From positions 1 through 28,229 of the IMG/VR virus record IMGVR_UViG_3300009418_000084: DNA of 28,229 nucleotides. One strand, given 5' to 3'. The DNA comes from a virus. Below, piece after piece: positions 6,325-28,229 of the stretch (position 1 is the stretch's first letter; the number at the start of each line of letters is the position of its first letter). The position numbers were made by a program, and so were the translations under genes. Below the pieces are notes generated by a model that was given only the letters and a program-made list of their open reading frames with translations, did not search any database and was not told the DNA's origin.

Positions 6325-6332
6325 AGTAACTC

Positions 6333-6343
6333 ATTTTATATAC
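6333..6343 (-). promoter_or_regulatory. GTATATAAAAT box before the 338-residue structural gene
   Basis: On the minus strand the sequence GTATATAAAAT is followed by GAGTTACT and the ATG at 6324. The same 11-base string precedes two other genes (10731-10741 and 15223-15233). The box overlaps nothing but the end of the frameshift extension stop region (6345-6347). Candidate phage promoter; untested. Confidence 0.45.
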
Positions 6344-6344
6344 C

Positions 6345-6539
6345 CTACTTCTTTGAGCTTTTCATGGCTTCTTCCTCTCTTTGAGCTTCCTCAACACGCA
6401 TGTCTATAAATTTTTTCCGCTCGATCAAAGTCATAGCCATGACATCATGAAAAGTGAAGCCACAGTTGTGAGCTAGAATATATGCTTCGTGTTCCCCTGC
6501 GTCAGCTTTATGACGCTCTTCTAGCTCACGGAAAAAAAA
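6345..6539 (-). CDS. -1 frame extension of the gp26-like hub gene (GT-like tail assembly chaperone tail)
   Basis: After the slippery run at 6532-6539 the -1 frame stays open for 62 codons to TAG at 6345-6347. It has no usable start: a TGA lies just before the run and the first ATG is about half way in. The peptide reads FRELEERHKADAGEHEAYIL, then AHNCGFTFHDVMAMT, then ERKKFIDM and a charged tail. The pattern (aromatic, small residues, Gly, then MT..E+ ..F) resembles the short T domain of G/GT-type chaperones in other tailed phages. A slip would yield a 339-residue fusion (277 hub residues plus 62). A miscounted T run would instead make one continuous gene. It fills an otherwise empty gap. Confidence 0.65.
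   Translation of the reverse strand, partial: FFFRELEERHKADAGEHEAYILAHNCGFTFHDVMAMTLIERKKFIDMRVEEAQREEEAMKSSKK
6499..6516 (-). other. Hairpin downstream of the slippery site
   Basis: On the minus strand GCGTCA is followed by the loop TAAAGC and then TGACGC, a perfect 6-bp stem. It begins 16 bases after the slippery heptamer, somewhat farther than the usual spacer of 5-9. The loop also contains AGC that could pair with AGCT upstream, so a pseudoknot is possible. It may stimulate frameshifting. Confidence 0.45.
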
Positions 6540-8795: not shown

Positions 8796-8985
8796 TTTAT
8801 CTGACTCCGATAAAGAAAGCCTAAAAATACTATCTGATAGGCTCTCCAATCTAAAATCTAAAGACGTGATTACGGAAGAATCAGTCTTGGAAATGGAGAT
8901 CATACTAATGGAGATATTGGTAATGAAAGACAGGCACCAAAAACACCTACTTCGCTGGGTCAAGCAAGGATATATCTTAGATTAG
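8758..8985 (+). CDS. Small protein following uvsW (UvsW.1-like by position)
   Basis: The 75-residue product is highly charged and probably helical throughout, ending RHQKHLLRWVKQGYILD. T4 has a 76-residue gene uvsW.1 directly after uvsW; size and place match here, but I cannot show sequence homology. The ATG at 8758 lies inside the last 38 bases of uvsW in another frame, which suggests coupling. Its stop overlaps the convergent 578-residue gene by 4 bases. A chance frame is possible but the composition looks like a real small protein. Confidence 0.6.
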   Translation: METKKDKEEKINSLSDSDKESLKILSDRLSNLKSKDVITEESVLEMEIILMEILVMKDRHQKHLLRWVKQGYILD

Positions 8986-10718
8986 GCGCCGTACTGCTCT
9001 TCGTCTTCCACGTCTTCTTGTTGGCCGCCGTTTACGCCCATACCTTTCACAAGAGCTTCTAGGTCATCAAGGAGTTTAGCAGCATCTGCGTGGTTCTTGT
9101 CTGTTCCAGTCCCTCCAGACTCAACCGAATCATCTCCTACAGGAAACCTATTACCGTTTGCCTCTTCCTCTCCAACTCCTTCTTCAGCTTCTGCCCCCTC
9201 TCCATTCTCACCCTCAAAAGGCTCTTCGTCTTTTACCTCGGCCTCTCCTGCTTCGCCAGGTCCAGCTTGAGGATCCTGGTCAGTTACAGCAAATTTCTCT
9301 TCGTCGCTAGGGACATCTTCTCCATTCTGTTGGATGTCTTCCTCTCCTTCTACCCCTAAGGGGGATGGTTCAGCATCGTAGTCCATTTCCGTGCCTTCAA
9401 TACCAGCTTCAATCGCATTTCCTTGTGGGTCACCCCCAAGAAGAGTTCTGAGAGCGGCTAGGTCCTTAGTTAGTTTTGGAACATTGATATAATTAGACAA
9501 TAGGTTTTCACCTACGATGTCAATGCCAGCTTCAGTTAAGCAGCTATGAATATAGTCATTAACTTCCAAAGTCTCAACGCCACCTTTCTTAGAGATGACT
9601 CTTGCGAATTCTTTAGAAACGTCATGTACTACACCCTCATCCTTACTCAACAACGACAAGACCTCAAAGAATACTGACTGAGTTTTCGCCAGGTTGCTAA
9701 AGGTTGGTACAAACTTGAGATTGGTTACATTAATCCCATAATTCTCATTCAAAACTTCTGTAATAGACTCCTTTGCGGGTTTTTTTGCTTCGAATAGAAG
9801 GCTTGTGAATTCTTTAATGTCTTTTTTAGAGATGAGATCGTTGGAATTAACTTCGTAAATGGATGTCAAAATTTCCTGGATTTCATTCTTAGGAGCAAAA
9901 GCAAAATAGGGGACATCTTCAATAACCTCAGAAAGTGTTTCTATTATAGCTTCTTCTTTTGCGTAAATCATGGATGCGAGATTTTGAATCTTTTCATTAG
10001 AGATCCAAACAGTAGAAAACGATCTTTTGGCATCCAAAAGCTCCTGGCTAATCAATTCTTGGTGACAAACCATTTCATAAAGGGATTGTCCATCACAGAG
10101 GTCAACTACAAACAAATCAGCATCCCTAAGGGAATCATAATCACAACGGTTAATAGTAAATGCCTTATTAATCGCGTTACTTATCTTTGCGCTGTTTATC
10201 ATGTCAGAGTTTTCCAAGACAGCTTTCTGATTTTCTCGAAGGAAATTAGTTACCAATGGTTTTATTTCCTCCAGCTTTTGAAATTCCTTGGACTCCGTAA
10301 TTTCAGTTTTTCCTGTCATAGGATCCAAAGACTTCTCAATTTTAGTCTCCAACCCTTTCATAGTGTTTCTGGATTCAAAAAGACCTATTAGGTCGTCGAA
10401 TGAAACATCTGCTTTGTCGTATCTGTTTTCCCTTAGGGAGTCAACAAAAGAATCTATTGCCTCTTTGATGGTACCCTCCACTTTATCCGCAGATACAAAT
10501 TCATCTACAGATTGTATTGAAAAATCTCTAAGCAAAAGCTTAGAATCTTTGACCTCGTAAGCACACGAGATTACAGAATTTTTCTCAGAAAGAAACTCTG
10601 CAGTTTTATTTACAGAATCAACTGAGAAAACTCTCAAATTTTCTCTCAGAGACCGACTAAGATAGTCGGCAGCCTTGTGCAAATTGGTAAGATCCTTATT
10701 TCGTTTCTCTAATAACAT
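8982..10718 (-). CDS. Probable head-associated protein with highly acidic C-terminal tail
   Basis: The 578-residue protein has a helical, Leu/Glu/Lys-rich body (1 to about 425) and a long acidic, Gly/Pro-rich tail (about 428-578) with runs such as GVGEEEANGN and EDVEDEEQYGA. I recognise no enzyme motif. It lies directly after the portal gene on the same strand, where T4-like phages place prohead core and scaffold genes; helical body plus acidic low-complexity tail fits a core, scaffold or inner head protein (inference). A GTATATAAAAT box followed by AGGA lies 12-23 bases before the ATG, suggesting its own promoter. The 3' end overlaps the small gene after uvsW by 4 bases. Confidence 0.7.
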   Translation of the reverse strand: MLLEKRNKDLTNLHKAADYLSRSLRENLRVFSVDSVNKTAEFLSEKNSVISCAYEVKDSKLLLRDFSIQSVDEFVSADKVEGTIKEAIDSFVDSLRENRYDKADVSFDDLIGLFESRNTMKGLETKIEKSLDPMTGKTEITESKEFQKLEEIKPLVTNFLRENQKAVLENSDMINSAKISNAINKAFTINRCDYDSLRDADLFVVDLCDGQSLYEMVCHQELISQELLDAKRSFSTVWISNEKIQNLASMIYAKEEAIIETLSEVIEDVPYFAFAPKNEIQEILTSIYEVNSNDLISKKDIKEFTSLLFEAKKPAKESITEVLNENYGINVTNLKFVPTFSNLAKTQSVFFEVLSLLSKDEGVVHDVSKEFARVISKKGGVETLEVNDYIHSCLTEAGIDIVGENLLSNYINVPKLTKDLAALRTLLGGDPQGNAIEAGIEGTEMDYDAEPSPLGVEGEEDIQQNGEDVPSDEEKFAVTDQDPQAGPGEAGEAEVKDEEPFEGENGEGAEAEEGVGEEEANGNRFPVGDDSVESGGTGTDKNHADAAKLLDDLEALVKGMGVNGGQQEDVEDEEQYGA

Positions 10719-10776: not shown

Positions 10777-12465
10777 TTAAACCTTCGCCTGCGCCTTGGG
10801 AGCTTCTGCTGCTATAGTTTCATCTCCAGCCGCTTCTGTAGCACCAGGAGGTGCATCTTCTTCTGCTGCAGTAGGTGGTCCCATCGGCTCACCTCCCTGC
10901 ATTGGAGGAGCCCCAATGGCTCCAGGGTCTTGCTGCATCATTTCCTGCTCTTCATCGAGCATTTCTTTAACCTGAGACTTCATCTCCTCTATTTCATTCT
11001 CACTCATTTGGTAGTAATTTTTATAGAGATGGTCATCAGAGAATAGTTGAAGCCCTTTAACAGCTTGGACAACCCGTGTCTTTTGTTCGTCTAGTTCTAG
11101 ACGTCTCTTCTCAAACATATCAGAAGGTGGGCACAGCGCAATATCGATACTCTTGATGACATGTTCCGGGAAATTCTTTAACTTCAGATGTCTACGTGTG
11201 AGATTATTCAGACCAATTTCTACTTCTCTCTGTATTCTAGTTACGGCTCTGGCGAACTTAACATCTAGCTGAGACAGGTTAGCCTTCCTCTCTGGAGTAT
11301 TGTCCTTCTCTACAATGTAGTCTTTTGGAACCTTCAGAGCAGCTAATAGTTTGTCTCTAAAGTACTTAACATCATCTGTTTCCCCCAGGTTTTGGGCTCC
11401 GGGCAATGTTTCAATCTTAGTTTTACTGTTTGACCTAATAGGGACAAAGAAATCCTCTTCAGGCGCCATTGGGTTATAACGTTCATTGATAGTGCCAGTT
11501 GTGTTGTCCCAAAACTTTTCTTTTCTAAATTTAGCCTTTAGGCGCTCCATATACGTTTCTGCCTTCGAGGTAGGCATACTTCCGATGTCAACATAAAATA
11601 CGCGTCTCTCCGGTGCCCGCGCTAGCCTGTAGATTAGCATGGCATCTTCCATGATAACCAAGGATTTCCAAGCTCTTACACCTGGCTGTAAGATAGACTT
11701 CCCATAGGGATAAAAATTAGGATCAGAGGTGTGAATTCTGAAATGAACAATTTGTTCTTTATCGAGTTTTAAAAATTTCCCTGTCCCTCCCCCACCTTCC
11801 AATTGAGCGGAGTCAAAAGACGCATTAGAATCAGGGATTTCCTGTAAAAATTCTTTTAAATAACCATATTTATTTTCAATTCTAAAAATGAAATTTGGAT
11901 TTAAAACTTTTATCCTCTGAATACCAGCTTTGGTATTATTGAGATCTACAATATTCTCTATAAAACAATCTCCGTACTTGCAGACATTTCTGACAATATC
12001 CCAAATAAACTCCCGCATTCTCACATGTTCAAGGAATCTCTGGACTTCTTCTTTTACTGTCCTATTATCAGTTTCTATTTCAAATATTTTACCAGTTATA
12101 TTTTTTTGTGTCGAATCATCGGAATAGATGTCCAGAGCAGCTGCTATTTCTGGGTAGTCATCCATCTTCTCGTATTCCTTATACCGACGCTTTCTGTCGT
12201 ATTCTACTGCCGGTATCTTTGCTACACCCCTAGAGATACCAAAGCCAGGAACTCCACCAAATGTGTCATCCGTTTTTAGGGTGTCTCCAGCGAGCCTCCC
12301 ACCCTTCTCTTCAGGACGTCCTTTAAAACCTCCTCTAGAACCTCCAAAAAACTTATTAAACCACGCCGATAGACGAGACATCGGCTGACCCGCTACATTA
12401 CCTCTTGGGTTCGAAAAATTGGTGTAGGATTCGTCTAGGTTAGTTTTGTCTATTTCATCAGCCAT
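10777..12465 (-). CDS. 20: Portal vertex protein, T4 gp20-like
   Basis: The 562-residue protein has the T4-type portal pattern: DYPEIAAALDIYSDD near residue 100, then EFIWDIVRNVCKYGDCFIE, PNFIFRIEN, RAPERRVFYVDIG, and KLLAALKVPKDYIVE in the second half. The portal forms the dodecameric ring through which DNA enters and leaves the head. T4 gp20 has 524 residues; the excess here is a low-complexity tail of Met, Pro, Glu and Ala after about residue 505. AGAGGA at 12472-12477 lies 6 bases before the ATG. The start is nested 16 bases inside the end of the terminase gene, so the two are probably co-transcribed. Confidence 0.93.
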   Translation of the reverse strand: MADEIDKTNLDESYTNFSNPRGNVAGQPMSRLSAWFNKFFGGSRGGFKGRPEEKGGRLAGDTLKTDDTFGGVPGFGISRGVAKIPAVEYDRKRRYKEYEKMDDYPEIAAALDIYSDDSTQKNITGKIFEIETDNRTVKEEVQRFLEHVRMREFIWDIVRNVCKYGDCFIENIVDLNNTKAGIQRIKVLNPNFIFRIENKYGYLKEFLQEIPDSNASFDSAQLEGGGGTGKFLKLDKEQIVHFRIHTSDPNFYPYGKSILQPGVRAWKSLVIMEDAMLIYRLARAPERRVFYVDIGSMPTSKAETYMERLKAKFRKEKFWDNTTGTINERYNPMAPEEDFFVPIRSNSKTKIETLPGAQNLGETDDVKYFRDKLLAALKVPKDYIVEKDNTPERKANLSQLDVKFARAVTRIQREVEIGLNNLTRRHLKLKNFPEHVIKSIDIALCPPSDMFEKRRLELDEQKTRVVQAVKGLQLFSDDHLYKNYYQMSENEIEEMKSQVKEMLDEEQEMMQQDPGAIGAPPMQGGEPMGPPTAAEEDAPPGATEAAGDETIAAEAPKAQAKV

Positions 12466-15247: not shown

Positions 15248-15916
15248 ATGAAAGAAATCCCCACCAAATTTGTACAAGATATTAACGAAAATATTTTTAA
15301 AGGCTATGGAAATAAAAACAACCTAGGGTTTAACCCAGCAGAAAATGAAAAGCAATCTAGAGAGCTGGCGTCCGCTACCAAAGGTAAATTCACTGCTGCA
15401 CCCCCTGCTGGCAATGCACAGGAACCCAAAGTTACCGGTAATCAAGAGAATGCTGCCGCAGCCTCTAATGCAGGTCCTCACAACGACACATTCAGTCATG
15501 AAGCCGTAAAGGATGAAGGTGATGGAGTATCTCCTGCTGCCAATGTTGGTATTCCTCCTAATATTGCTAATAAATGGTCTATGCCAAAAACATTGTCTGA
15601 TTCCCAAATGGTTACAACTCCTGAAACCTCCCTTAATGAAAACCCTCTCCAAGACAGGGTTGACAAGCTAGAGGAAGCTTTGGCTACTATCGTTGCCGCA
15701 CTTAAGAAACAGCTTCACGAAGCCCGTTCTCCTAGCGCCGGTCTTTCGAAGAAGGAGAAGAAAACTACGGCAAAGAAAGCTGCAGCCGGAAAAGACATAG
15801 GGAAACCAGGTAAAAACTTTGCTAAAGTAGCCGCTAAAGCTGCCGGTAAATACGGAAGTGCTGCAGCGGGCAAGAGAGTTGCCGCAGCTGCCATGTGGAA
15901 AAACATCAAAAGGTGA
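15248..15916 (+). CDS. Lys/Ala-rich basic protein, possible head-internal or DNA-associated protein
   Basis: The 222-residue product starts MKEIPTKFVQDINENIF, continues with a disordered Ala/Asn/Pro-rich middle, a short probable coiled coil (DRVDKLEEALATIVAALKKQ, about residues 138-157) and a C-terminal tail full of Lys and Ala (KKTTAKKAAAGKD, KVAAKAAGKYGSAAAGK) like histone or histone-like tails. The N-terminal INE|N and an internal LNE|N resemble, but do not exactly match, T4 prohead protease sites ((L/I)-x-E before a small residue). It heads the plus-strand operon ending with dCMP deaminase. Function unknown; DNA binding inside the head is an inference from charge. Confidence 0.65.
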   Translation: MKEIPTKFVQDINENIFKGYGNKNNLGFNPAENEKQSRELASATKGKFTAAPPAGNAQEPKVTGNQENAAAASNAGPHNDTFSHEAVKDEGDGVSPAANVGIPPNIANKWSMPKTLSDSQMVTTPETSLNENPLQDRVDKLEEALATIVAALKKQLHEARSPSAGLSKKEKKTTAKKAAAGKDIGKPGKNFAKVAAKAAGKYGSAAAGKRVAAAAMWKNIKR

Positions 15917-15966
15917 TACTAACTGCTCTACTACTATCCCTCCCACAAACATGCCTCGAACACCAA

Positions 15967-16887
15967 ATGCCTGCTAAAACCGAAAAACAAGCAAACTTCA
16001 TGAGAGCAGTAGCACACGGATGGAAACCTAAAGGCCGAAAAGCCCCATCCCCCTCTGTTGCTCGTCATTTCATGCATGTCAAAGAACAAGCACCCACAAA
16101 AAGATTTGGTGGACGCGAAGATAGGTTACGATCTATAGGTGCACAACTTGGAACTACGGCTGGAAAAGATGTAGCCAGGAGAACCGGTTTCGTCGGTACC
16201 CAAAGTAAAGATGAAGCAAGGAGAGGTGGTTTCCAAGGAACTCAACGACTAGATGTTGCTCGCAAAGAAGGGAGATTCGGCAAAATGAATCCTGATAAAG
16301 ATAGAGCATTTACACAAAGGACATCAAGACCTTCCACTCCAACCCTTAGTAGAAGGTCAGGGGAACTCCGTTTGGCAGCAAACAAAGAACACGGAGGATC
16401 CCCTCTAAGAGACAATAAAATGAACAACTTTATACACAATCCATATCAAATAACTCCAGAAACTATGGTTAATAAATCTTGGAGATCCACGGTCTTAGAA
16501 GATAGCGAAGTAGAAGCTGCTGAAGTAGAATCAAAAACTAAACAAGCAGCTTTAGATAGAGCACGTTCGCGCTTAAAGCGCTCTCGTGAGGCCGCTAAAT
16601 CTGCTACTAAAAGATTACTAAGTCTTCAAGCCCAATCTAGCAGAACGGGACACGTTAGACCTCCAGAGCGTCTAGCTGCTAACCAAGAATACGAAGGTGA
16701 ACTTCAAAACGAAGTAACCAAGAAGAGGAAAAAGGCTCAAGAAGAATTGGAACAGGCTGCAAAAGAAAATAAGCCTACTAACCGGAAAATAAGAAGAATG
16801 TTTCGTAAGTCTGGAAAGCAAAGGCAATTAGACATTACAACTACTCATGGCGGAAGAATGCCTGGTGAGTCTTATAATAAAAATTAG
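15967..16887 (+). CDS. Basic protein with 'KQANFMRAVAH' N-terminus and tandem repeats
   Basis: From ATG 15967 the product has 306 residues. The start MPAKTEKQANFMRAVAHGW followed by SVARHFM is a widespread short N-terminal motif of small phage proteins of unknown function, which is why this start is preferred over the in-frame GTG at 15895; no Shine-Dalgarno is visible for either. Residues 62-104 hold three related units of 14-15 residues (GT...DxARRxGF). The segment RLAAN(K/Q)E occurs twice (135, 235). The C-terminus holds EGELQNE (243-249) and RKIRRMFRKSG (273-283), a module shared with the convergent 310-residue protein. Very basic; possibly packaged with DNA (inference). Confidence 0.65.
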   Translation: MPAKTEKQANFMRAVAHGWKPKGRKAPSPSVARHFMHVKEQAPTKRFGGREDRLRSIGAQLGTTAGKDVARRTGFVGTQSKDEARRGGFQGTQRLDVARKEGRFGKMNPDKDRAFTQRTSRPSTPTLSRRSGELRLAANKEHGGSPLRDNKMNNFIHNPYQITPETMVNKSWRSTVLEDSEVEAAEVESKTKQAALDRARSRLKRSREAAKSATKRLLSLQAQSSRTGHVRPPERLAANQEYEGELQNEVTKKRKKAQEELEQAAKENKPTNRKIRRMFRKSGKQRQLDITTTHGGRMPGESYNKN

Positions 16888-17182: not shown

Positions 17183-17593
17183 ATGACAATTACCAGGTTT
17201 GATCTGGCTTATATGAAGATGGCAGAGGAATGGAGTAACCTGTCCGTAGCCAATAGAAAGAAAGTTGGATGCCTTATAGTAAAACGTGGTCAAATCATCT
17301 CAGATGGCTTCAACGGCTCTCCTAGAGGATTTCCTAATGAATGTGAAGGGGAAGACGGAAAAACCCTTGAACACGTCCTGCACGCCGAGAGCAACGCTGT
17401 GACGAAGCTGGCAAAGAGTACTAACTCTTCTGAGGGAGCTTTTCTGTATGTTACTCTCTCCCCTTGTTTTGAATGTGCTAAACTTATTATTCAGGCAGAG
17501 ATTTCCCGCGTTGTATGCGGAGAAAAGTACAGAGTTAGAGACGGAATTAAACTGCTAAGAAAAGCTGGTATTGTAGTCGAGTTTATTGACTAA
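17183..17593 (+). CDS. cd: dCMP deaminase
   Basis: The 136-residue enzyme has the zinc-dependent deaminase signature: HAESN with His67 and catalytic Glu69, and TLSPCFECAK with Cys95 and Cys98 as zinc ligands. The FNGSPRGFPNECE segment (43-55) is typical of the dCMP deaminase branch (ComEB/T4 Cd). It converts dCMP to dUMP, feeding thymidylate synthesis for phage DNA. Length is below T4 Cd (193) but near bacterial ComEB-type enzymes. It is last in the plus-strand operon and its stop overlaps the convergent basic protein gene by 4 bases. Confidence 0.92.
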   Translation: MTITRFDLAYMKMAEEWSNLSVANRKKVGCLIVKRGQIISDGFNGSPRGFPNECEGEDGKTLEHVLHAESNAVTKLAKSTNSSEGAFLYVTLSPCFECAKLIIQAEISRVVCGEKYRVRDGIKLLRKAGIVVEFID

Positions 17594-18522
17594 GGATAGT
17601 TTGGCAAGTCGCCATACATCTGATCGTCTGCTTCCTGTTTAGCTGATTGATGCAAGGCGCCACCTCTTCTGAAGGCCACTCTTAGCTTTCTGTATGGTCG
17701 GCTTCCTTTTACCTTCTCAGCGGCTTTCTTAGCTAAATCACGAACGCCTGCTTCATTTTGAAGTTCGCCTTCCAATCTTCTGCTTTCCCTAGGACCACCA
17801 GCCTTAAATGCCTTCGTAGCTTTTCTTACCCTCATCCACCTCTTGAAACGACCCAAAGGTCTTACAGCCTTTCTTGCGCGAGCCGCTCTTTGCCTTGGAG
17901 ACATTGGAAGAAATCCGGCATCCTTGACTCCAGTCCCGGGACCCTCTGCGCCCATCGAGCGGCTGGTGTCTGCCCTTAAATTCCTTATGGAGCGAGCTGT
18001 TTGATTCCGTAGCAGTCTTACTTCCTTCCCTGGTGAGGTCCGTCGGGGGCTTATCCCCTCCGGAGATCCAGCGGCGACATTTTGTGCCTGTGTGTCTGAT
18101 CCAACTCCAGCCATAAACCGGTCATGCTCGTCTGGAACTTTCATTTTCTGTGCCCCAGTCCTTCCACCGGTAGTTTGGACGTAGCGGTTCGCGGCGCTCT
18201 CGGCCTCTCCTCCCCGCTTGTGCAGCCCTGCCACTTTTCGTTCTCGCGAGCGAGTAGCTCTAGCTGCAAAACTTGTAGGGTCGCTAACAGGTTTAAGTTC
18301 GTTAATCCCGTCACCTTCGTGTTCTTGGTGATCACCCTGCATTTCTTGGCGTTCCCTCTTGCCTGCTCCCTCTTCATCGGAATAGTCATAGTCTCTAATC
18401 TTGGATTTTTTAGCCTTGGATTTTTTAGCCTTCTTTTTGGCTTCCATCATAGTCTTAGTCTTCATGGACTCGTTAATGAAGCGGTTAACAGTCTCTTCTG
18501 AAATTTGAGTAGGGTGTTTCAT
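17590..18522 (-). CDS. Basic Arg/Lys-rich protein with capsid-targeting-like N-terminus
   Basis: The 310-residue protein starts MKHPTQISEETVNRFINE|SM, where INE|S (16-19) fits the T4 prohead protease rule (L/I-x-E before Ala/Gly/Ser); T4 internal proteins use similar short N-terminal targeting peptides. Next come a Lys run made of a duplicated AKKSK unit (residues 32-41), an acidic patch (DYDYSDEEG), and a long Arg-rich region. The C-terminus carries EGELQNEA (251-258) and RKLRVAFRRGG (278-288), shared with the 306-residue protein encoded on the other strand. Likely disordered and nucleic-acid binding; a packaged internal head protein is inferred. It follows the hydrolase gene by 10 bases. 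Confidence 0.65.
   Translation of the reverse strand: MKHPTQISEETVNRFINESMKTKTMMEAKKKAKKSKAKKSKIRDYDYSDEEGAGKRERQEMQGDHQEHEGDGINELKPVSDPTSFAARATRSRERKVAGLHKRGGEAESAANRYVQTTGGRTGAQKMKVPDEHDRFMAGVGSDTQAQNVAAGSPEGISPRRTSPGKEVRLLRNQTARSIRNLRADTSRSMGAEGPGTGVKDAGFLPMSPRQRAARARKAVRPLGRFKRWMRVRKATKAFKAGGPRESRRLEGELQNEAGVRDLAKKAAEKVKGSRPYRKLRVAFRRGGALHQSAKQEADDQMYGDLPNYP
18401..18430. repeat. Perfect 15-bp tandem duplication
   Basis: CTTGGATTTTTTAGC occurs twice head to tail (18401-18415 and 18416-18430). On the minus strand it encodes two copies of AKKSK in the basic protein, so it changes the length of a Lys run without breaking the frame. Confidence 0.9.
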
Positions 18523-18532
18523 TCTATTATAT

Positions 18533-21500
18533 TTAGAGAGGGGACTTCAGTATTGTATTGTTTATTGGTAATAATAAGAAGGAATTACCCCCAATTCTAA
18601 TTCTTAACTCAAATTCTTCGAAACTAGGTAACCCAGTAAATACCCCACCTGCGATAGGATATTTAGAGCCTGGAATTCCTTCAACCTTACTTCCCTCCTC
18701 ATACGGGGGCTGTTGTATAGACATATTCCACAGTTTAACTCTTATTCTGTTTCCTGAGGAGAATTTATAGTAATACGGATTTAAGGGGAATTTTGCTCTA
18801 TAGAAATTAGAAGTACTTGTAGTCTGTTGATCAACTTGAGAATACAACGCTCCTACCACATACTTTTCATTTTCTGCTGGATCTACTTCATACAGCGCGG
18901 CAAAGATTTGAAAAGACCCTGTGTTTGAGCTTACATCAATAACCGCGCTAGGAGAGCCAAGAAGAGTTTTTGGTTTGTTCAATACAGGTCCATCCCATGA
19001 AATATTAGTGCTGGATACCATAGGGACCTCTCCATAATGTCCCGGGTAGCCCTTGTATTGTGAGTAGCTATCTTTATTGATGTCTATAGCGCTCGGAACT
19101 AGCATCCTGTGTTGGTATACATCATTTTTATAGTAACCTTCAACATTACTCCTGTACCAATTACGAAAAATTACTCCTGGTGCTGGTTCGGGAGGGTCTA
19201 TAAGATCCCTATCCCCTACCCCACCAACAGAAAGAGGTATATCATGTGTTGGGACGAAAGGAAATATCCCTTCACCCCACGATTCAACGAGATTCTCGAA
19301 ATCTCCAGAGGAAAACATTAACCTGTGGTTTATAGAAAATCTATGATAGTCAGTTGTTGATAACGGATCATCTAAGTCAATTCTCAACAACGAGTCATAC
19401 GGAGGAGGCCAATGATCGAATTGTGATACAAATTTTTCAGAGTCTGGGTTATTATACTCTTCACCTTCAGGGACAGTAATCATTCCAGCTGCGGGTAAAT
19501 AGTCTACAAATCCTTGTGGTGCTGTGTTGACTGCCGACAATAAATAATTTTTGTTGTCTATAGGAATTGGAACCCCTCTAGCCCAGTAGCTAATCCAATC
19601 TTTTTCTCTTTTATCTATCAAAGCGAATTCTTTGTTACTGCGTGCGGTTCCGTGAGCCACCCCGTGTGTACATAAAAATGTCGTTTTTGCGTTTTTGTTT
19701 TGTTCAGCTCTTTTTATAAAATACTGTATGTTGTTAACAGGTGACATAATGATGTCATCATACCCCATATGGAATGCTATGTTAGTATCGGATGAGTACC
19801 ACCTACTAAACCATACTTTATCCCCGTCAAATTCTCCGGAAATATAAGGGAGAATTGCCGTGCCAAAATTTTCGTAATTAGGTTGATATCCTTCCTCTGT
19901 ATCCTCACTAGAATACATCCTCCCTAATTTAAAAGATGCCCCCCCATAACCCTTGGAACACACTTTAATGATTTCCCCCGCTTCCAAACTTACAAGGCCC
20001 TCAGGCATGCACCTATACCAGCCATATCTTTCAATTACAGGCGAATTGGAAGATGAAGTGTAGCTATCCCACGTCGATCCGGACTTTGTATATGCTTTAG
20101 GCCATACCCACGATGCAAATGGTAGTTCAACGCCTGCATCCGTAGATCTGGGATCAAAATGAAGCATTCCGGAAGGCGCATAAGGTACGTTTCCAATTGC
20201 TCCATATTCGCTGAAATTCAACTCCGTCTCACTGTGATTAACTTTTCCTGTTCGAAAGAAAGTCTTTAAGCTGTCCCAATCCCACTTTTCCCACCAATAC
20301 TCCACAGGAAAAATACACACAGGATTAGACCAAATCCCTAAGTCTTGTAGGTCCCAACCCTTAAACTGATCGGGATTATAATACTCTAAGGAATCAGACC
20401 ATTGAGTTTTTCCTTTTTTGGCATATAGAAAAAAACTAAAATGTTGTTTGATTCCTCCATCCCATTCTCCTTCAGTAACATGACCCCATGCATCAATCAG
20501 GGCACCTCCAGCATGGATTGATTTTATAGTCCTGAATCCCTGCAAAGGAAATTGGTTATCTATTGGATTGTATGGATCAGTAGCGCTATACTTCCGAAAT
20601 CCATTTTCCGGATCTTCTGCTCCTGATCTTGGATTCATGTAAGATTTTCCAAACTCCAAAGTAGAAGTATTATAATTATATCTTACAAGCTTATCGATTG
20701 ACATGTTTTGAGTATATTTGAGACCCGAGTCTACAGACATATAAAGTGGTACGGCTCCAGCCAGAGAAAAACCAGCGGCGTGCATATTATCCAAATCCAT
20801 CAAGAGTTTAAACTCATTTCTCGATGGGTGGGGAACCATTATAGTTTTTTCGTTCTCCTCTCCTTTATTCTCATTTTGAATAAGACTTCCATCTCTATCA
20901 AATATTTGAGAAGTTATTTTAGTCGGCTCAAATACTAATGGTGTTTGACCACCTTGTCCTACATCGTATGCTGTTCCTTGGTAGAGACACTCTATAACTT
21001 CCCAAGTATCCAACCTGTGTCTAATCGAAGTCTCATAACTCCTACCACGGAATCGTGGATCATTTCTAGCTACGGATTCGCCACGACCCCTAATATCAGG
21101 TAGAATGACAAAAAACCCTCTCTCTGTCCATTTTAGTGCTTCTTGACCTACAAGAGTTCTGTTAGAAGGCCCAGTATGGGATACGATCATTACAGGAAGT
21201 TTGTCTCCTCCAGCAAGGGCTACTTCAGAACTCTCGATTGAGTAGCGAAAATCTACTAGCATATAATATCCATCAGACAGGATAATACCTCCAGTGCTCT
21301 CTATAATAGCCTGAGGGGGGAATTCTGGGTGCTGCTGACGAATCTTGTAGATATAATCCCCATCCCTCCATATCCTAGCCTGAGCTGTTAGAGTGTAAAC
21401 TCCGTAAGATTCAAAGCTATCTTCCTGGACTTCGTACACTGCATAGAAAAAATTCTGAAACGCAGGACGGATAACGTCTCCAGCCCGAAGATTTCTACCA

Positions 21501-21865
21501 AGAAGTTTTCTTATCTCTTCTCTGTTAAAAGTAAAAGACAACTCACTAGTCAATTCTAATCCAAATTCAGATAAATTCTCCTGGATAGGAACCGGATCGA
21601 AATGAGCGTAAGTCCCTACTGGAACTGGGGATAGAGCTTTTATACGATCTTCGTCGTATAAATCATCAAAGTTTTCTGTAGATAAAAACTTATAAACAGT
21701 GACTTCGGATCCCCCCAATTTAATTAGTTCATTATTGACCATATTAAAAAGAGCTCTGTCAGCCCCGAAATCTTCGAAAACTGACAGAGTCCCTTCATTA
21801 AAAATATCTTCAATTTCTAATCCATTCTCAAGATTAGGTGCATTAAATTGGTCTTTATCCGACAT
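18533..21865 (-). CDS. Neck-domain / alpha-beta hydrolase fusion: gp14-like N-terminus, S15/CocE-type hydrolase, PepX_C-like jelly roll
   Basis: This 1110-residue protein has three parts. Residues about 25-175 follow T4 neck protein gp14 (NNELIKLGGSEVTVYKF, then SEFGLELTSELSFTFNREE, then RAGDVI, then FYAVYEV). Residues about 195-750 form an alpha/beta hydrolase of the S15 peptidase/CocE-NonD esterase group: MLVDFRYS, LPVMIVSH, LPDIRGRGES (255-264), nucleophile GFSLAG (Ser367), acid in GYDDIIMSP (Asp704) and His738 in THGVAHG, with a long insertion between Ser and Asp. Residues about 945-1095 look like the jelly-roll of X-Pro dipeptidyl peptidases (LLGSPSAVIDVSS, GNRIRVKLWNMS). It is probably a virion-bound hydrolase; the substrate is unknown. 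The ATG at 21865 has no clear ribosome site and may be coupled to the gene 15 bases upstream. Confidence 0.85.
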   Translation of the reverse strand: MSDKDQFNAPNLENGLEIEDIFNEGTLSVFEDFGADRALFNMVNNELIKLGGSEVTVYKFLSTENFDDLYDEDRIKALSPVPVGTYAHFDPVPIQENLSEFGLELTSELSFTFNREEIRKLLGRNLRAGDVIRPAFQNFFYAVYEVQEDSFESYGVYTLTAQARIWRDGDYIYKIRQQHPEFPPQAIIESTGGIILSDGYYMLVDFRYSIESSEVALAGGDKLPVMIVSHTGPSNRTLVGQEALKWTERGFFVILPDIRGRGESVARNDPRFRGRSYETSIRHRLDTWEVIECLYQGTAYDVGQGGQTPLVFEPTKITSQIFDRDGSLIQNENKGEENEKTIMVPHPSRNEFKLLMDLDNMHAAGFSLAGAVPLYMSVDSGLKYTQNMSIDKLVRYNYNTSTLEFGKSYMNPRSGAEDPENGFRKYSATDPYNPIDNQFPLQGFRTIKSIHAGGALIDAWGHVTEGEWDGGIKQHFSFFLYAKKGKTQWSDSLEYYNPDQFKGWDLQDLGIWSNPVCIFPVEYWWEKWDWDSLKTFFRTGKVNHSETELNFSEYGAIGNVPYAPSGMLHFDPRSTDAGVELPFASWVWPKAYTKSGSTWDSYTSSSNSPVIERYGWYRCMPEGLVSLEAGEIIKVCSKGYGGASFKLGRMYSSEDTEEGYQPNYENFGTAILPYISGEFDGDKVWFSRWYSSDTNIAFHMGYDDIIMSPVNNIQYFIKRAEQNKNAKTTFLCTHGVAHGTARSNKEFALIDKREKDWISYWARGVPIPIDNKNYLLSAVNTAPQGFVDYLPAAGMITVPEGEEYNNPDSEKFVSQFDHWPPPYDSLLRIDLDDPLSTTDYHRFSINHRLMFSSGDFENLVESWGEGIFPFVPTHDIPLSVGGVGDRDLIDPPEPAPGVIFRNWYRSNVEGYYKNDVYQHRMLVPSAIDINKDSYSQYKGYPGHYGEVPMVSSTNISWDGPVLNKPKTLLGSPSAVIDVSSNTGSFQIFAALYEVDPAENEKYVVGALYSQVDQQTTSTSNFYRAKFPLNPYYYKFSSGNRIRVKLWNMSIQQPPYEEGSKVEGIPGSKYPIAGGVFTGLPSFEEFELRIRIGGNSFLLLPINNTILKSPL

Positions 21866-22081: not shown

Positions 22082-22095
22082 CGCCCTATCGGGCG
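22082..22095 (-). other. Hairpin across the stop codon of the 118-residue gene
   Basis: The minus strand reads CGCCC-GATA-GGGCG, a perfect 5-bp GC stem with a 4-base loop. The TAG stop (22086-22088) of the upstream gene is formed by the loop end and the first stem base. No T-run follows, so it is not a typical terminator; an mRNA processing or stability element is possible. Confidence 0.5.
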
Positions 22096-22442
22096 TCCGG
22101 GTTGTAATTGGGATCGGACGCGGCGGCCTCGCTTCCCGGGCTGTATGTTGGTTTCAAATGTGCACCTCTAGCGGCTGTATCTATCTGTGTCCACCGCTTG
22201 GGGTCTGCCATCTCTTTCCCCATCTGTCGCTGTTTCATGATTCTTGGGGTGGACTTCTGTATTGATGCGGCGTGTACAGGAGAGGGTTCGGCTTCTACAG
22301 AAGTGGCTGCTTCTTTTGCAGCTCTGTCACGTGCTTTTTGGTTTTCTCTTCTTTTCTTTGCTGTAATCCTTTCCTGCAAGAATCCGCCCACTGGTTTCCA
22401 TTTAGGTTTTTGAGGGTCGATATAACGAAGAAAGGATTCCAT
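22086..22442 (-). CDS. Small basic protein of unknown function, 118 residues
   Basis: The product starts MESFLRYIDPQKPKWKPVGG, has a Lys/Arg/Ala helix (TAKKRRENQKARDRAAKEAA) and an Ala/Ser/Pro-rich second half ending SDPNYNPDAR. It is basic and probably largely disordered, similar in style to the other basic proteins of this phage but without a shared motif that I can see. It lies between two small membrane-type genes in a tight block; the gap to the next gene upstream is 19 bases. No function can be assigned. Confidence 0.55.
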   Translation of the reverse strand: MESFLRYIDPQKPKWKPVGGFLQERITAKKRRENQKARDRAAKEAATSVEAEPSPVHAASIQKSTPRIMKQRQMGKEMADPKRWTQIDTAARGAHLKPTYSPGSEAAASDPNYNPDAR

Positions 22443-22613: not shown

Positions 22614-23078
22614 CTACGCAGGAGATATGACTCGGCTTGCATGTATATTTATTAAAGCTTCAGATCCACCACTAAATACTAACTTGTCTACGCCTACCCC
22701 ATATCCCGGTGTTATTTTTATTCCTTGCGGGAATCTAATCGTTTCTGCCTTCTTGGCCTTTGTAGTAAGAACAAGAAAAACGGCGTCATCTATAGTTTGA
22801 TCAGAGTGGGCAATTGCGGGATCATAGAAAGACCCTCCCCATAGTACTCCTGCAGTGGCTATTGTGATAGACCAGACAACCCAGTAGTCTGAACTTTTTC
22901 CCTCTGGAAAATAACTTGTATTGGAAGGTGCGGGAAGGAACACGTATGGAGTCCCATAGGTTTTGAGATTGATAGAAGATGCAGTAGTTACAGCTGAGTC
23001 CTTGAGACCTTCCACAGAAGCTCCTTCTTGCCTCTTCCATCCTGGGGTATATGCTATTCCACTATTAGTTGCAGCCAT
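22614..23078 (-). CDS. Virion-like beta protein, paralogue A of a tandem pair
   Basis: The 154-residue protein begins MAATNSGIAYTPGWKRQEG, almost the same as the next upstream gene, followed by a Ser/Thr/Tyr-rich beta pattern, a central SDYWVVWSITIATAGVLWGG, and FLVLTTKAKKAETIRFP then GYGVGVDKLVFSGG. The second half looks like a small beta-sandwich of a decoration, head-fibre or tail-fibre type. The first 16 codons are nearly identical in the two genes, while the rest is strongly diverged. A structural role is inferred from composition and the block of virion genes. Confidence 0.65.
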   Translation of the reverse strand: MAATNSGIAYTPGWKRQEGASVEGLKDSAVTTASSINLKTYGTPYVFLPAPSNTSYFPEGKSSDYWVVWSITIATAGVLWGGSFYDPAIAHSDQTIDDAVFLVLTTKAKKAETIRFPQGIKITPGYGVGVDKLVFSGGSEALINIHASRVISPA

Positions 23079-23084
23079 AGTCTG

Positions 23085-23531
23085 TTACCCGTCTGTTTGT
23101 TCGGTATAGTATATCGTAAGCCACCTATTTCCGGTTCCAGTATTTTGATTTATCCTGACTCCGTGTCCACTAGCTATCTCAATTGGGTTATTGAACATTT
23201 CTTTGTTAGGCACGTTTTGTGTAGCTCCAAAGAGTACGAAATCTTCTCCTTCTATAAGAGAAGCAGGTCTCGTAGCGTCATATTGGGAAGAGTAAAGAGT
23301 TCCTGTATAATCAGTTGAGTTATCAGTAGCAATGGCATACCCCCAGATATAGTAGAAATTAGTCGATGTTGTAGGTTTTGGCAACAGCATAATACCACTT
23401 GTATTTGTGCTACCAGATTGACCAAAAGAAGAAAAGGAGTAGGTTGAACCTCCTTTTACAAGCCCTACAGATTTCTTACCGGTACGTTTCCATCCGGGAG
23501 TATACGCGATTCCACTATTAGTTGCACCCAT
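23085..23531 (-). CDS. Virion-like beta protein, paralogue B of a tandem pair
   Basis: The 148-residue protein begins MGATNSGIAYTPGWKRTGK and shares the layout of the neighbouring 154-residue protein: Ser-rich first third, a YYIWGYAIATDNSTDYTGTLY stretch split by aromatic residues in the same place as the WVVWSITIATAG segment, then DFVLFGATQNVPNKE and GHGVRINQ. The two genes are 6 bases apart, consistent with tandem duplication. It is likely a small beta-sandwich virion protein; decoration protein or fibre is possible. No enzymatic motif is visible. Confidence 0.65.
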   Translation of the reverse strand: MGATNSGIAYTPGWKRTGKKSVGLVKGGSTYSFSSFGQSGSTNTSGIMLLPKPTTSTNFYYIWGYAIATDNSTDYTGTLYSSQYDATRPASLIEGEDFVLFGATQNVPNKEMFNNPIEIASGHGVRINQNTGTGNRWLTIYYTEQTDG

Positions 23532-23572: not shown

Positions 23573-23773
23573 TTATTTCAATACTCCTAGGTCTTTCCAG
23601 AATTCTTCTCTGTACAGAATATCACAGTAGTAACATTGTATTTCTTTTATACCAAGCTCAAGATGAAAGGCGTGCCGGTGAATCCTCACTAACTGACGTT
23701 CTGCGTGTTTTGGCATAAGTATGCTACAAGATGGAAGAAAAATCAGCGGTAGAAGGACTAACAGTGATTTCAT
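23573..23773 (-). CDS. Small lipoprotein, 66 residues
   Basis: The N-terminus MKSLLVLLPLIFLPSC is a lipoprotein signal with lipobox LPSC, giving a mature N-terminal Cys16. The remaining 50 residues contain His and Arg (AERQLVRIHRHAFHLELG) and a CYYC pair. It would be anchored to the inner or outer membrane of a Gram-negative-type host. Small phage lipoproteins include Rz1-type outer spanins and superinfection-exclusion proteins; either could fit, though no proline-rich Rz1-like stretch is present. Its ATG overlaps the stop of the 608-residue gene as ATGA. Confidence 0.7.
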   Translation of the reverse strand: MKSLLVLLPLIFLPSCSILMPKHAERQLVRIHRHAFHLELGIKEIQCYYCDILYREEFWKDLGVLK

Positions 23774-25596
23774 TTTTTCTTTTTAAGGCTCCTACGGTGG
23801 CGAGCAAGTCTACTTAATCTACGTTCGTCTCCCTTATGCCCAGGCTTCTTCTTAGGTCGTCTAGAACCGCCTGAGCCATATATAGGGGGTTGGTAACTTC
23901 CAACCTTAATATCCCTAGCAACATAGGGTCCTCCATCACTTGAAGCAACCTCATCTTCGTGCTTTTGCCTTATCTCTGTTCTTTCTTCGGTATCTCTAGC
24001 GTGTTCTTCACCTTTCGGAGTTCCAGGCTTACCTCGTCGTCTTTCCGATAGTATGTCACCTAAGGTTCTTTTGTGGGAAAAATCAATTTCTCCCTCTTCC
24101 TTTGCAGTTGCCCTTGTTTTTGGTCCGCGACCAAAACGACCTTTCTTCTTCCTATCGGCATCAGGTATGTCACCTTTGTTTCCACCGTACTTTTGGCGTT
24201 TCTTCCCTTTCTTTTTACCACGAAGGTTCTTAAGATCTTTGGCGTCGATGTCACCGTCTTTGTCGGTATCCATTACGTCTTCTTGTTTTCCGCTTAAACC
24301 GTTACCGTTTTTGAAGTCAATTTCACCTTCTTCTTTAGCGGTTTCTCTAGTCTTAGGACCTCTTCCAAAATGACCCTTCTTCTCTCGATCAGCGTCGGGA
24401 ATGTCTCCTTTATTGCCTCCGTACTTCTGGCGTTCGGTTACGGGTCCGGGAGCGCTTTGTAGTTGCTCCAAGTCGCTGAGCGTTAGAGAAGCGCTTTCCG
24501 CTAAAATTTTATCGTGATTGTATTTCATACTGGAGTCTTCTCTTTTAGCGCCAGTCTTGTCTTTCTTAATGAGTTCTTTCGAGGTTTCCATACGTTTAGG
24601 ACCACCTTGTATTATTTTGCCCATTCGCTGGTTTAAATTCGAAACTCCCTGCAGTGCGTCTTCATGTCGTTTCCGTTCTGCGTTACGACTCTTCACACCC
24701 GCCACACGCCTCTTTATATCTGCTTCATGAGCCGGAGACAGAATTTTCGGTTCTCCTCGCGCAGGCTGTGCCGAGTGCTTCATAGGACCAACGGTTTGGC
24801 AACCGGGTGTGCCGGGTGCGCATGCAGTTGTTGAGGCAGCTGCCAAAGCAGCGGGAATTGCCACTTTTCTCCCCACTCTCTTCGCAATATCGCCTATCTT
24901 TCCTTCCACTCTTACCAATTTTCTTTGTGGGTTATTATCGTGACTGTATTTCATATTTGAATTTTCCATAGCTTCATTATTTTTTCCCTTTTTCCATTCT
25001 TCACCCTCATCATCGGCATCCATAAATCCCTTCAACTTATCCATAGCAATATCCTTATCCCTATACGACCACTCTGGAGGATTTCTCCTGCTTCTCCTAT
25101 TCATACTGAATCGAATTTTTTTTCCTAAGTCTCCCGTGCTAATATCTCCGGCTCCAACTCTGTCTGGGATATAATCTTTACCTCCAGGACCTTCTCCCGT
25201 CTCAATAGATCCCCTACTTTGGCTATAGTTGTGTCTTGCGTCCTCGACACCTTTATCGTAATCCCTCCTAGTTTCCCACCCTTGGATGTGGCGCGTCACA
25301 GGGCCACGACGAGGATTTTGAGTGTGTCTTTGATAACGATCTACTGTTCTATCTCTAATCCTGTCAATTGCTTTATAACCTGCCATGGCACGATGTATGG
25401 GCGCAGGTGGTGGCTTTCCTGGGCTTTTACCCGTATACCTTTCTTCTTGCCTAGCCTTGTTATATTGATCTGACCGCCGAGAAGCTCGCATGTTCCGGGC
25501 AGAGAATGCTCTACCGACTCTATAGCCTGTCTCGTATGGATTATCTCCTGTTGTACGTCCTTCCGAGAATGGTATTAATTTTCTTTTGGTAGCCAT
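23770..25596 (-). CDS. Large basic repeat protein with EF-hand-like loop, 608 residues
   Basis: The protein is very rich in Lys, Arg and Gly. Residues 389-428 and 467-506 are two copies of a 40-residue module (RQKYGGNKGDIPDADR then KKG(H/R)FGRGPKTR then TAKEEGEIDF), 37/40 identical. Between them, DTDKDGDIDAKD at 443-454 is a perfect EF-hand/dockerin-type calcium loop. A nonapeptide-like element (E(N/D)S(N/S)MKY(S/N)HD) occurs near 211 and 353; the second is followed by ILAE|S, a T4 prohead-protease-like site. An internal hydrophobic patch ends in STTAC (254-259). The C-terminus is SRLARHRRSLKKKK. Likely a disordered nucleic-acid-binding or head-internal protein (inference). No known family recognised. 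Confidence 0.65.
   Translation of the reverse strand: MATKRKLIPFSEGRTTGDNPYETGYRVGRAFSARNMRASRRSDQYNKARQEERYTGKSPGKPPPAPIHRAMAGYKAIDRIRDRTVDRYQRHTQNPRRGPVTRHIQGWETRRDYDKGVEDARHNYSQSRGSIETGEGPGGKDYIPDRVGAGDISTGDLGKKIRFSMNRRSRRNPPEWSYRDKDIAMDKLKGFMDADDEGEEWKKGKNNEAMENSNMKYSHDNNPQRKLVRVEGKIGDIAKRVGRKVAIPAALAAASTTACAPGTPGCQTVGPMKHSAQPARGEPKILSPAHEADIKRRVAGVKSRNAERKRHEDALQGVSNLNQRMGKIIQGGPKRMETSKELIKKDKTGAKREDSSMKYNHDKILAESASLTLSDLEQLQSAPGPVTERQKYGGNKGDIPDADREKKGHFGRGPKTRETAKEEGEIDFKNGNGLSGKQEDVMDTDKDGDIDAKDLKNLRGKKKGKKRQKYGGNKGDIPDADRKKKGRFGRGPKTRATAKEEGEIDFSHKRTLGDILSERRRGKPGTPKGEEHARDTEERTEIRQKHEDEVASSDGGPYVARDIKVGSYQPPIYGSGGSRRPKKKPGHKGDERRLSRLARHRRSLKKKK
24079..24198 (-). repeat. 40-codon protein module, copy 2
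   Basis: Encodes residues 467-506 of the 608-residue protein. 37 of 40 residues match copy 1 (24313-24432), but 25 of those 37 are encoded by a different codon, so the DNA similarity is much lower than the protein similarity. Confidence 0.9.
24313..24432 (-). repeat. 40-codon protein module, copy 1
   Basis: Encodes residues 389-428. Substitutions relative to copy 2 are Glu/Lys (405), His/Arg (410-equivalent in the FGRG segment) and Glu/Ala (before KEEGEIDF). The copies are 78 codons apart with the EF-hand loop between. Confidence 0.9.
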
Positions 25597-26360: not shown

Positions 26361-27689
26361 TTAGGAAAAGCATACCCCATAACACCCCCCGAAGACGGAC
26401 ACAGTCTCACACTGGGGATAAAGAATACCATGATATTTAGAAGCATGAGGAATCATAAGAGAGTCAGGTATCAGATAGTTCTTCTGTATTACTATCCCTC
26501 CAGGTTGACGCGTAAAAGGTGTTGTAATCCCACCTCCAATTCCGTAAATATATTTCCTTACATCATCCAAAGATGTTTTTTCTTCCCCTGCAAGCCAGCT
26601 GGTAGTAAAATTCACCATCCTTGTGTAAAGAATATAATTGATGTTTGACCAACCGCTAGCAGCATAACAAGTTTTAAAAAAGTTATTATTCGCATTTTTG
26701 TACCAGTCAGTAACTTGTTCATTAGTCAAGTCATAATCATAAGGGTCTATTGTGAACAGAATATCTTTTAATGGCTCATACTCAGATTCAGAAATCTCAA
26801 CTGACATTTCATCACTAGCGTATGTCGTCCAATAGAGAGGATCAAAAGTGCTCCCGTAATTAGGTGGAGTATACCCATCAGGCAAAGTATTAGGAATAGC
26901 AATATCTGGAGGAATTGCCATGTAAAAATTAACATATTCTTGATTTACTCTAAAACCTGGTTCCAAGAAATAATCCTTCATGTTAAGAGGGTCATAGGGG
27001 TAGGAACTAATTTTATTAATAGAAGGGACAGAAGACTGTTTCTTCCAAGCTGGATGACTAGGGGTAGGGATAAGACTCGGATGTATCATCACTTGATTAA
27101 TATTCATCATTAACCCAACTCCCGGGTAGCTAGGCCATCCGGGAAAGTTAAACGCCTTCATGAACTGGAATCTAGCTCCTGCGCTCTTTTTTTGTAAATC
27201 AGGGTCAGTTCCGTCATTCGGGTTATATTCAATGTCGAGAGACTCAGTAGGCCCAGGGTTAGGCGTTCCCACTGCAGCAGCCAGTCCTGTTTGAATATCG
27301 AACCCCATACTGCAATACATAAGATATTCGTTAACAGAGCCATTCGCGTAAACCGGATTCGATGGACTATTGTCTCTAAGTACCGCGATTCCAGTTCTAG
27401 TATAATCTGTCTTAGCATCCTTAATTTCATACAGGAACCATCTAAATGCTAGGAAGAAAAACGTATTCATTGCAATAGTAACTTTTCTTGCTGGTTGTGG
27501 TTTGGAACTTCTAGAAGAGTTAGATGCCTTTATATGATTCTTTATAAGTGACTCTATTTTTTTGTAAGCTGGGAGGAAGCTACAATTGTTGTAAAGGGGA
27601 AGAGCCCTAGCAACCCCATCCATGTCAACATGTTCGGACTTCAGAGTCTTGAATGCAAATCTCTGAAAAGCTTCGTAGGATTGTGCCAT
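26361..27689 (-). CDS. Unknown protein, probably virion-associated, 442 residues
   Basis: From ATG 27689 the product is 442 residues starting MAQSYEAFQRFAFKTLKSE; this start has AGGGA at 27695-27699 and follows the upstream stop by one base, so it is preferred over the in-frame ATG at 27752. The protein has a short N-terminal helical region, then a long Pro/Tyr/Asn/Ser-rich part (PGWPSYPGVGLMMN, DGYTPPNYGSTFDPLYW) and ends GGCYGVCFS with two cysteines. Composition fits a virion protein, but I recognise no family or motif. It is in the same block as the other minus-strand structural genes. Confidence 0.65.
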   Translation of the reverse strand: MAQSYEAFQRFAFKTLKSEHVDMDGVARALPLYNNCSFLPAYKKIESLIKNHIKASNSSRSSKPQPARKVTIAMNTFFFLAFRWFLYEIKDAKTDYTRTGIAVLRDNSPSNPVYANGSVNEYLMYCSMGFDIQTGLAAAVGTPNPGPTESLDIEYNPNDGTDPDLQKKSAGARFQFMKAFNFPGWPSYPGVGLMMNINQVMIHPSLIPTPSHPAWKKQSSVPSINKISSYPYDPLNMKDYFLEPGFRVNQEYVNFYMAIPPDIAIPNTLPDGYTPPNYGSTFDPLYWTTYASDEMSVEISESEYEPLKDILFTIDPYDYDLTNEQVTDWYKNANNNFFKTCYAASGWSNINYILYTRMVNFTTSWLAGEEKTSLDDVRKYIYGIGGGITTPFTRQPGGIVIQKNYLIPDSLMIPHASKYHGILYPQCETVSVFGGCYGVCFS

Positions 27690-27690
27690 T

Positions 27691-28229
27691 TTAGTCCCTT
27701 TTAGCTTTCTTTCCAGCAGGGGATGCCTGCCATCTACCAAAAATTTTACCAAATCTATCTGCTTTTTCCTTTGCTATTTCCGATTCAGCTTGTCGGCTTG
27801 AAGACAGAGGACTTCCTTTTGCTTGTTGGGCGGACCTTTTAGCTAAGGATTGTTGCGCTGCTCTTGCAGCTCCAACATTTTGAACGGTTCCCCACTTAAG
27901 CTCCACTAAAGATCTATTTGTTTTTATGGAATCGTCCACTCCGTCAGATTCTAAATTTCCTAGTCTAGCTCGTATGTCAGCTACTGTTGGTCTACCCCTT
28001 GTTATATGAGCAGCATTTCTAGCTTGAAAATCATTAAAATCACTTTTCCATTTTTCTCTTTCTTCTCTAGGAGCGCTGGGGTTGGGTCGTCTTTGGTGAA
28101 GCTTTGAACCCTCTTTAGCCAATTTTTCACCTTCGGTTTCGTTTTGATCAGCTAAGTACTGTTTAAATGAAATTTGTTGGTTGTCGCCAACAAGGGCTAA
28201 ATCATGGACTTTTAAATATTTTTTCGCAC
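27691..28229 (-). CDS. Basic protein of unknown function, 5' end beyond window
   Basis: The frame is open from the stop at 27691 to the right edge with no stop, so the true start lies outside. Visible sequence runs KYLKVHDLALVGDNQQISF, then a charged, Arg/Gln/Ala-rich helical region (REEREKWKSDFNDFQARNAA, IRARLGNLE, GAARAAQQSLAKRSAQQAKG) and ends KIFGRWQASPAGKKAKRD. A TTG at 28122 could be read as a start but lacks a ribosome site and lies in the middle of a continuous frame. The composition is like the other basic proteins of this phage. Coupled to the 442-residue gene by a one-base gap. Confidence 0.6.
   Translation of the reverse strand, partial: AKKYLKVHDLALVGDNQQISFKQYLADQNETEGEKLAKEGSKLHQRRPNPSAPREEREKWKSDFNDFQARNAAHITRGRPTVADIRARLGNLESDGVDDSIKTNRSLVELKWGTVQNVGAARAAQQSLAKRSAQQAKGSPLSSSRQAESEIAKEKADRFGKIFGRWQASPAGKKAKRD

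Follow-up and report, generated by a model that had tools for sequence, protein, structure and literature searches.

In phage T4, processing of the head core by the protease gp21 and the use of capsid targeting sequences are already known, as the accessible portions of PMC9026906 and PMC9958956 describe. According to the former, gp21 cuts at the motif L/I-X-E, with cleavage after the E, and the capsid targeting sequence (CTS) is an N-terminal stretch of about 10 residues that is cleaved after and adjoins the gp21 site. Domain mosaicism of phage proteins is known as well (Smug et al. 2023, PMC10684548); by that study's own account, the domain database on which it drew strongly under-represents head scaffolding. 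The open-licence PMC literature, so far as its text is accessible, yielded neither a cassette common to unrelated scaffolds nor the string 'GGNKGD'.

The stretch of DNA analysed here (the window), 28,229 bases long, makes up an entire IMG/VR virus record; its genes include those for a T4-type portal, a large terminase and a baseplate hub. One of its proteins, P0001, carries a 40-residue module twice; we refer to this module as T1.

23770-25596, minus strand: P0001, 608 amino acids, basic (net +50) and low-hydrophobic, an apparent mosaic of modules that holds the repeat
24313-24432, minus strand: T1 cassette copy 1, P0001 residues 389-428, profile match
24079-24198, minus strand: T1 cassette copy 2, P0001 residues 467-506, profile match
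24235-24270, minus strand: EF-hand-like loop DTDKDGDIDAKD, residues 443-454, between the T1 copies

Like the CTS, T1 is short, is a candidate for recruiting unrelated proteins to the core, and stands next to a gp21-like site. Unlike the CTS as set out in the available part of PMC9026906, it is internal (in P0001 and in the complete carriers), about 40 residues long and has the site before it, and so is not a CTS in that sense. It resembles the domain mosaicism of PMC10684548, to the extent of that paper's accessible text, in being a homologous fragment in otherwise unrelated phage proteins, and departs from it in being a short, probably disordered cassette in proteins of the head-assembly type.

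The two T1 copies in P0001

The initial annotation of positions 24079-24432 described a duplicated 40-residue module with 37 of 40 residues identical, 25 of the 37 shared residues being encoded by different codons. Recomputation returned exactly these figures, with 90 of 120 nucleotides identical. The repeat is not a product of chance: in 40 shuffles of P0001 the best 40-residue self-match was at most 13/40. Synonymous sites between the copies are saturated (NG86 pS ~1.0, pN 0.04), which rules out recent copying within the P0001 gene.

Two explanations had been offered for the recoding, the second being selection against DNA identity, that is, a plain tandem-type duplication whose copies are kept apart in DNA by selection against recombination. 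The 25 recoded residues do exceed the mean expectation of 21.5 of 37, and when 120 pairs of distinct long copies, taken from all carriers, are ranked by degree of recoding, this pair comes 13th. However, with independent codon draws at window usage P(>=25) is 0.15, and with P0001's own codon usage (21.4 expected) it is 0.14; copy 2 also shows high recoding in comparisons with almost all other T1 copies. Moreover, DNA identity between T1 copies is not generally avoided, because the L088 carrier holds two copies identical at 63/63 bases (the second is cut by the contig end), the outcome of either a recent duplication or an assembly error. The recoding in P0001 is plain saturation, as for two copies without residual DNA similarity, and not significantly more. 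Since 25/37 is not above independence, selection against DNA identity is not needed, and we consider it very improbable. Amino-acid changes between the copies are few (3/40).

The other explanation, an old duplication under strong selection on the protein, stands as regards selection. Unrelated proteins of other phages have retained T1, and a 14-row alignment that spans them has 12 invariant columns; these positions, together with 37/40 identity at saturated synonymous sites, call for selection on the peptide. The age it assigned to the duplication is possible without being established. Of 16 distinct long copies, only the two in P0001 have F at T1 position 22, and residues rare elsewhere but common to both copies suggest one lineage. 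The DNA of copy 1 is nevertheless closer to T1 in unrelated proteins of other phages, L109 (12/34 shared residues recoded, P(<=12) = 0.007, uncorrected for 120 pairs) and L085 (14/35 recoded), than to copy 2. The two copies may thus stem from an old duplication or, because copy 1 is nearer in DNA to the L109 copy than to copy 2, from two separate acquisitions.

P0001 also has a second, short repeat, MKYNHD (residue 357) and MKYSHD (residue 215); the DNA segments that encode it, 24509-24540 and 24935-24966, are 84% identical over 32 nt, and the motif was found in none of the other proteins of the loci.

T1 in other phages

The T1 consensus is RQKYGGNKGDIPDADRKKKGHxGRGPKxKETAxEEGEEDF. IMG/VR searches with alignments of the module gave 25 loci and then the best 80 of 93 loci. 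The 89 loci examined contained 88 carrier frames, which we clustered with the module masked (blastp, no joins at E<=1e-6). Among the loci listed, the clusters comprise 65, 10, 7 and 6 frames, and P0001 stands apart as a fifth group. The same fragment is found in otherwise unrelated proteins, four clusters plus P0001, which is the pattern of phage domain mosaicism. By sequence comparison, T1 is a portable peptide cassette present in five non-homologous protein groups, P0001 included.

Most carriers are strongly acidic. In cluster 1 the carrier is acidic, and in 6/10 cases a gene for a ClpP-like head maturation protease lies in its vicinity; in cluster 2, the cluster nearest to P0001, the carrier is the post-portal protein. 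Cluster 3 is a coiled-coil protein of ~530-570 residues with a long predicted helix. Its N-terminal half might be a protease, to judge by conserved His and Ser positions, but its structure model is of poor quality (mean pLDDT 47). The cluster-3 phages have a tubulin/FtsZ-like gene near capsid-type genes in 5/6 contigs (L084:1226-2401 matches Pfam Tubulin, E 6e-12). Predicted genes of the head-assembly type carry T1 in cluster 0, and clusters 1 and 2 are so placed by their neighbourhood.

Exactly one T1 match was found in every one of 30 whole records, the largest of 297 kb, and T1 as a general tag on several proteins per genome is ruled out by this count. Several copies within one carrier were seen in P0001, L088, L083 (one long and three short copies), and L070 and L047 (short copies). 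Across protein groups, T1 pairs show on average 0.90 of the expected recoding, with P<=0.05 in 21/95 pairs that are not independent of one another; slight shared DNA ancestry seems to be left between copies of different groups.

Among 84,980 bacterial and archaeal species genomes, 125 stretches fit the T1 pattern and none was confirmed. INPHARED gave no tblastn match even at E 10, although the BLAST low-complexity filter may hide T1, and a direct profile search of five INPHARED regions gave no significant match (best E 0.74, in one region). By sequence, the PDB holds no T1.

Cluster-0 carriers and gp22-type scaffolds

Cluster-0 carriers occupy the position of the T4 scaffold gene gp22, between gp21 and gp23. 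In both L098 and L094 a Pfam Peptidase_S77 gene (gp21, the prohead core protease) precedes the carrier, and the gene for the major head protein follows it (Pfam Gp23 in L098, PHROG 138 in both). A gp23-like frame lies within 300 nt downstream of 59/65 cluster-0 carriers and overlaps four more; a gp21-like frame lies upstream in 59/65, of which 49 have it at <=700 nt and 10 at 0.9-1.9 kb. In the L105 carrier, the C-terminal 109 residues are 57% identical to a protein of Flavobacterium phage immuto whose gene is placed between those for the protease and Gp23. In this location between Peptidase_S77 and Gp23 genes, as in their acidity and coiled-coil C-terminal part, the carriers resemble T4 gp22. 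They differ from it in that T1 is an exchangeable insert: it is missing from gp22 of cyanophage S-WAM1 and from two proteins at the gp22 position in other named phages.

A T1-blind scan with the C-terminal part of gp22 homologues found at least 430 relatives among at least 600 stretches, of which the best 80 were kept. T1 is optional in gp22-type scaffolds, because it is rare there: among these best 80 of at least 430 relatives it occurs in 4/74 with enough upstream sequence. Another internal repeat (18/25 or better) is found in 18/70 of the T1-less proteins from the same best 80. A different cassette, ARTDAEEEGY / ARTDAEEEGYKDG, is present in 23 copies in 12 of the best 80, up to three in each (L186, L200, L207, L222, L228, L255 and six others). 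The immuto gp22-position protein (L172:12790-14031), annotated in its record as a 'DNA polymerase phi-like protein', has a duplicated insert of its own, GFEQWLDSVSAQMDKF..., before the coiled coil, and a near-identical pair is found in L192. The predicted scaffold region before the coiled coil is one that holds exchangeable, often duplicated cassettes, T1 among them.

These observations bear on the reading of T1 as mainly a disordered, charge-patterned spacer. On that reading scaffolds and tails tolerate the shuffling and duplication of low-complexity inserts, and the similarity is a trace of insert DNA that has spread while having hardly any specific function. T1 is optional; unrelated inserts fill the same region, and 18/70 of the T1-less proteins have another internal repeat; and there is the residual DNA similarity across unrelated proteins noted above. 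In the cluster-0 structure model (mean pLDDT 63.8) the first half of T1 falls in a low-confidence stretch before the long C-terminal helix. However, the 12 positions that are invariant across unrelated proteins call for selection on the peptide, as does the near-identity of the P0001 copies at saturated synonymous sites, and one copy per record in 30/30 is unlike free spread. We regard the spacer as an unlikely explanation.

Candidate protease sites at the T1 boundary

In cluster 0, the motif [LI]xE ends 2-6 residues before the GG of T1 in 34/44 distinct contexts, against a background of 17.6% in the same proteins; with V and M allowed, the motif precedes T1 in 41/44. After removal of similar contexts the count is 14/23 (P 3.9e-6, or 0.0016 against E-holding windows only). 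These sites equal the gp21 motif published in PMC9026906, as given in its available text, with cleavage predicted from sequence. [LI]xE also precedes ARTDAEEEGY in 18/23 copies (background 15.5%), and both GFEEWLD copies in L192 likewise follow it. Elsewhere it stands before T1 in 4/6 contexts of cluster 1, 1/6 of cluster 3 and 0/9 of cluster 2. Two points weigh against T1 as a head-core cassette freed at this motif: clusters 2 and 3 rarely have it, and cluster 2 is the one nearest to P0001; and the ClpP-like protease of cluster 1 has no known L/I-x-E preference, yet the motif is found there in 4/6.

P0001 has only three [LIVM]xE motifs in its 608 residues.

24433-24441, minus strand: VTE, candidate protease site, residues 386-388, directly before copy 1; V rather than L/I
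24043-24051, minus strand: LSE, candidate protease site, residues 516-518, nine residues after copy 2
24496-24504, minus strand: LAE, residues 365-367, the sole other [LIVM]xE in P0001

VTE and LSE thus flank the whole T1-EF-T1 block, and copy 2 is without a site before it.

P0001 and its window

P0001 was not placed in a known family: PHROGs and NCBIfam gave no match and Pfam none above cut-off. INPHARED gave no match by tblastn, and IMG/VR yielded no relative over its whole length. Related phages were fetched with the portal protein, using the best 80 of 597 relatives.

10777-12465, minus strand: portal protein (PHROG 213, E 4e-89), the query for related phages
8982-10718, minus strand: the window's post-portal protein, whose acidic tail lacks T1 and the EF-hand-like loop, both carried by relatives elsewhere
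23839-24051, minus strand: C-terminal tail of P0001, residues 516-586, common to the relative of ORF 15248-15916 in L017

In these contigs a unit of T1 plus an EF-hand-like loop occurs in the tail of the post-portal protein, the relative of ORF 8982-10718. Among 50 complete post-portal proteins in the portal loci, including the window's own and its 100% twin in L004, T1 is present in 5/50, a short form (GGNKGDKSKTH or similar) in 3/50, the EF-hand-like loop in 8/50 and any of these in 11/50. The loop pattern is found in 2/629 other frames of at least 150 amino acids, namely P0001 and the L026 frame 5824-6699, and by its N-terminal part the latter looks, by eye, like a relative of ORF 15248-15916. 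The tail of P0001 is 53.5% identical to the L017 relative of that ORF over 71 residues (E 5e-13), and a scan of loci with this tail returned only the contig already known, that of L017. P0001 looks like a mosaic of tails that are borne on other proteins in sister phages, because both the T1-EF unit and the C-terminal tail occur on other proteins in the portal-fetched contigs.

The loop follows the D-x-D-x-D-G-x-I-x-x-x-D pattern of EF-hand calcium-binding loops, between the P0001 copies as in the related tails. It differs from a regular EF-hand in being a single loop in P0001, with Pfam EF-hand scores of 11.8-13.4, below cut-offs near 25; Ca2+ binding is putative.

P0001 shares only T1 with cluster 0 and has no gp22-like C-terminal part. 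Its neighbours in the window are not gp21- or gp23-like, so that it does not lie in a gp22-type gene position, and no gp21- or gp23-like frame was found in the window or in the 80 portal loci (best 80 of 597).

The window encodes five more basic proteins (pI 9.7-10.8, 19-20% hydrophobic), at 15248-15916, 15895-16887, 17590-18522, 22086-22442 and 27691-28227; the phrase GELQNE, found by eye, is in both 15895-16887 and 17590-18522. The adjacent proteins at 22614-23078 and 23085-23531 are paralogous (32% identity, E 1e-12) with the common start M[AG]ATNSGIAYTPGWKR, and no family was found for them. ORF 18533-21865 encodes a protein of 1110 residues with a weak PepX_C match below cut-off, residues 25-174 of which are like parts of four other loci (45-51%). 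A related-loci scan with ORF 26361-27752 returned nothing.

P0001 could, then, belong not to the head core but to another part of the virion, as a nucleic-acid-binding or injected basic protein in which acquired T1-EF modules act as a metal- or nucleic-acid-binding unit. It is basic and has few hydrophobic residues, as do the products of ORFs 15895-16887, 17590-18522 and 27691-28227, it has the EF-hand-like loop between its copies, and it shares its tail with the relative of a basic ORF. However, most T1 carriers are strongly acidic, and the EF-hand-like match is below the Pfam cut-off. We hold this explanation to be unlikely.

Discussion

We tentatively favour, with a little less than even confidence, the reading of T1 as a head-core cassette that is swapped between unrelated core proteins, P0001 included, and is possibly freed by the maturation protease. 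We infer the molecular role of T1 in the head core as follows. The carriers, P0001 among them, would be built into the prohead core, where T1 would serve as a conserved contact motif. At maturation, a gp21-like protease may cut before T1 and free a peptide that starts with it. With its T1-EF-T1 block lying between VTE and LSE, P0001 would supply the head with two T1 units and a possible metal site; its two copies, old or separately acquired, would be kept by selection on the peptide.

P0001 is the weakest step in placing T1 in the head core. Its own head location would follow from its modules, its clade (the window and the best 80 portal loci) yielded no head protease or capsid gene, VTE is not a strict site, and copy 2 has no site before it. 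Also against the favoured reading, T1 is optional in gp22-type scaffolds and, though well conserved in cluster 0 (mean 0.82), is no better conserved there than the coiled coil (0.84).

A wider and rather doubtful extension makes T1 one member of a common stock of short cassettes in tailed phages, together with its short form, EF-hand-like loops, ARTDAEEEGY and GFEEWLD. Such cassettes would begin at protease sites, would often be duplicated, and would pass from one unrelated head-core protein to another and across phage lineages whose head proteases differ. Scaffolds would then be polyproteins that release functional peptides at head maturation.

Scaffold proteins change fast and are hard to recognise, and T1 may serve as a marker for head-core genes in uncultured phages. 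It also offers a definite candidate among the prohead's internal contacts and peptides, which are poorly understood. Were such cassettes excised at maturation, there would be an explanation for the way in which fast-changing scaffolds retain, swap and duplicate short peptides, and the question becomes testable.
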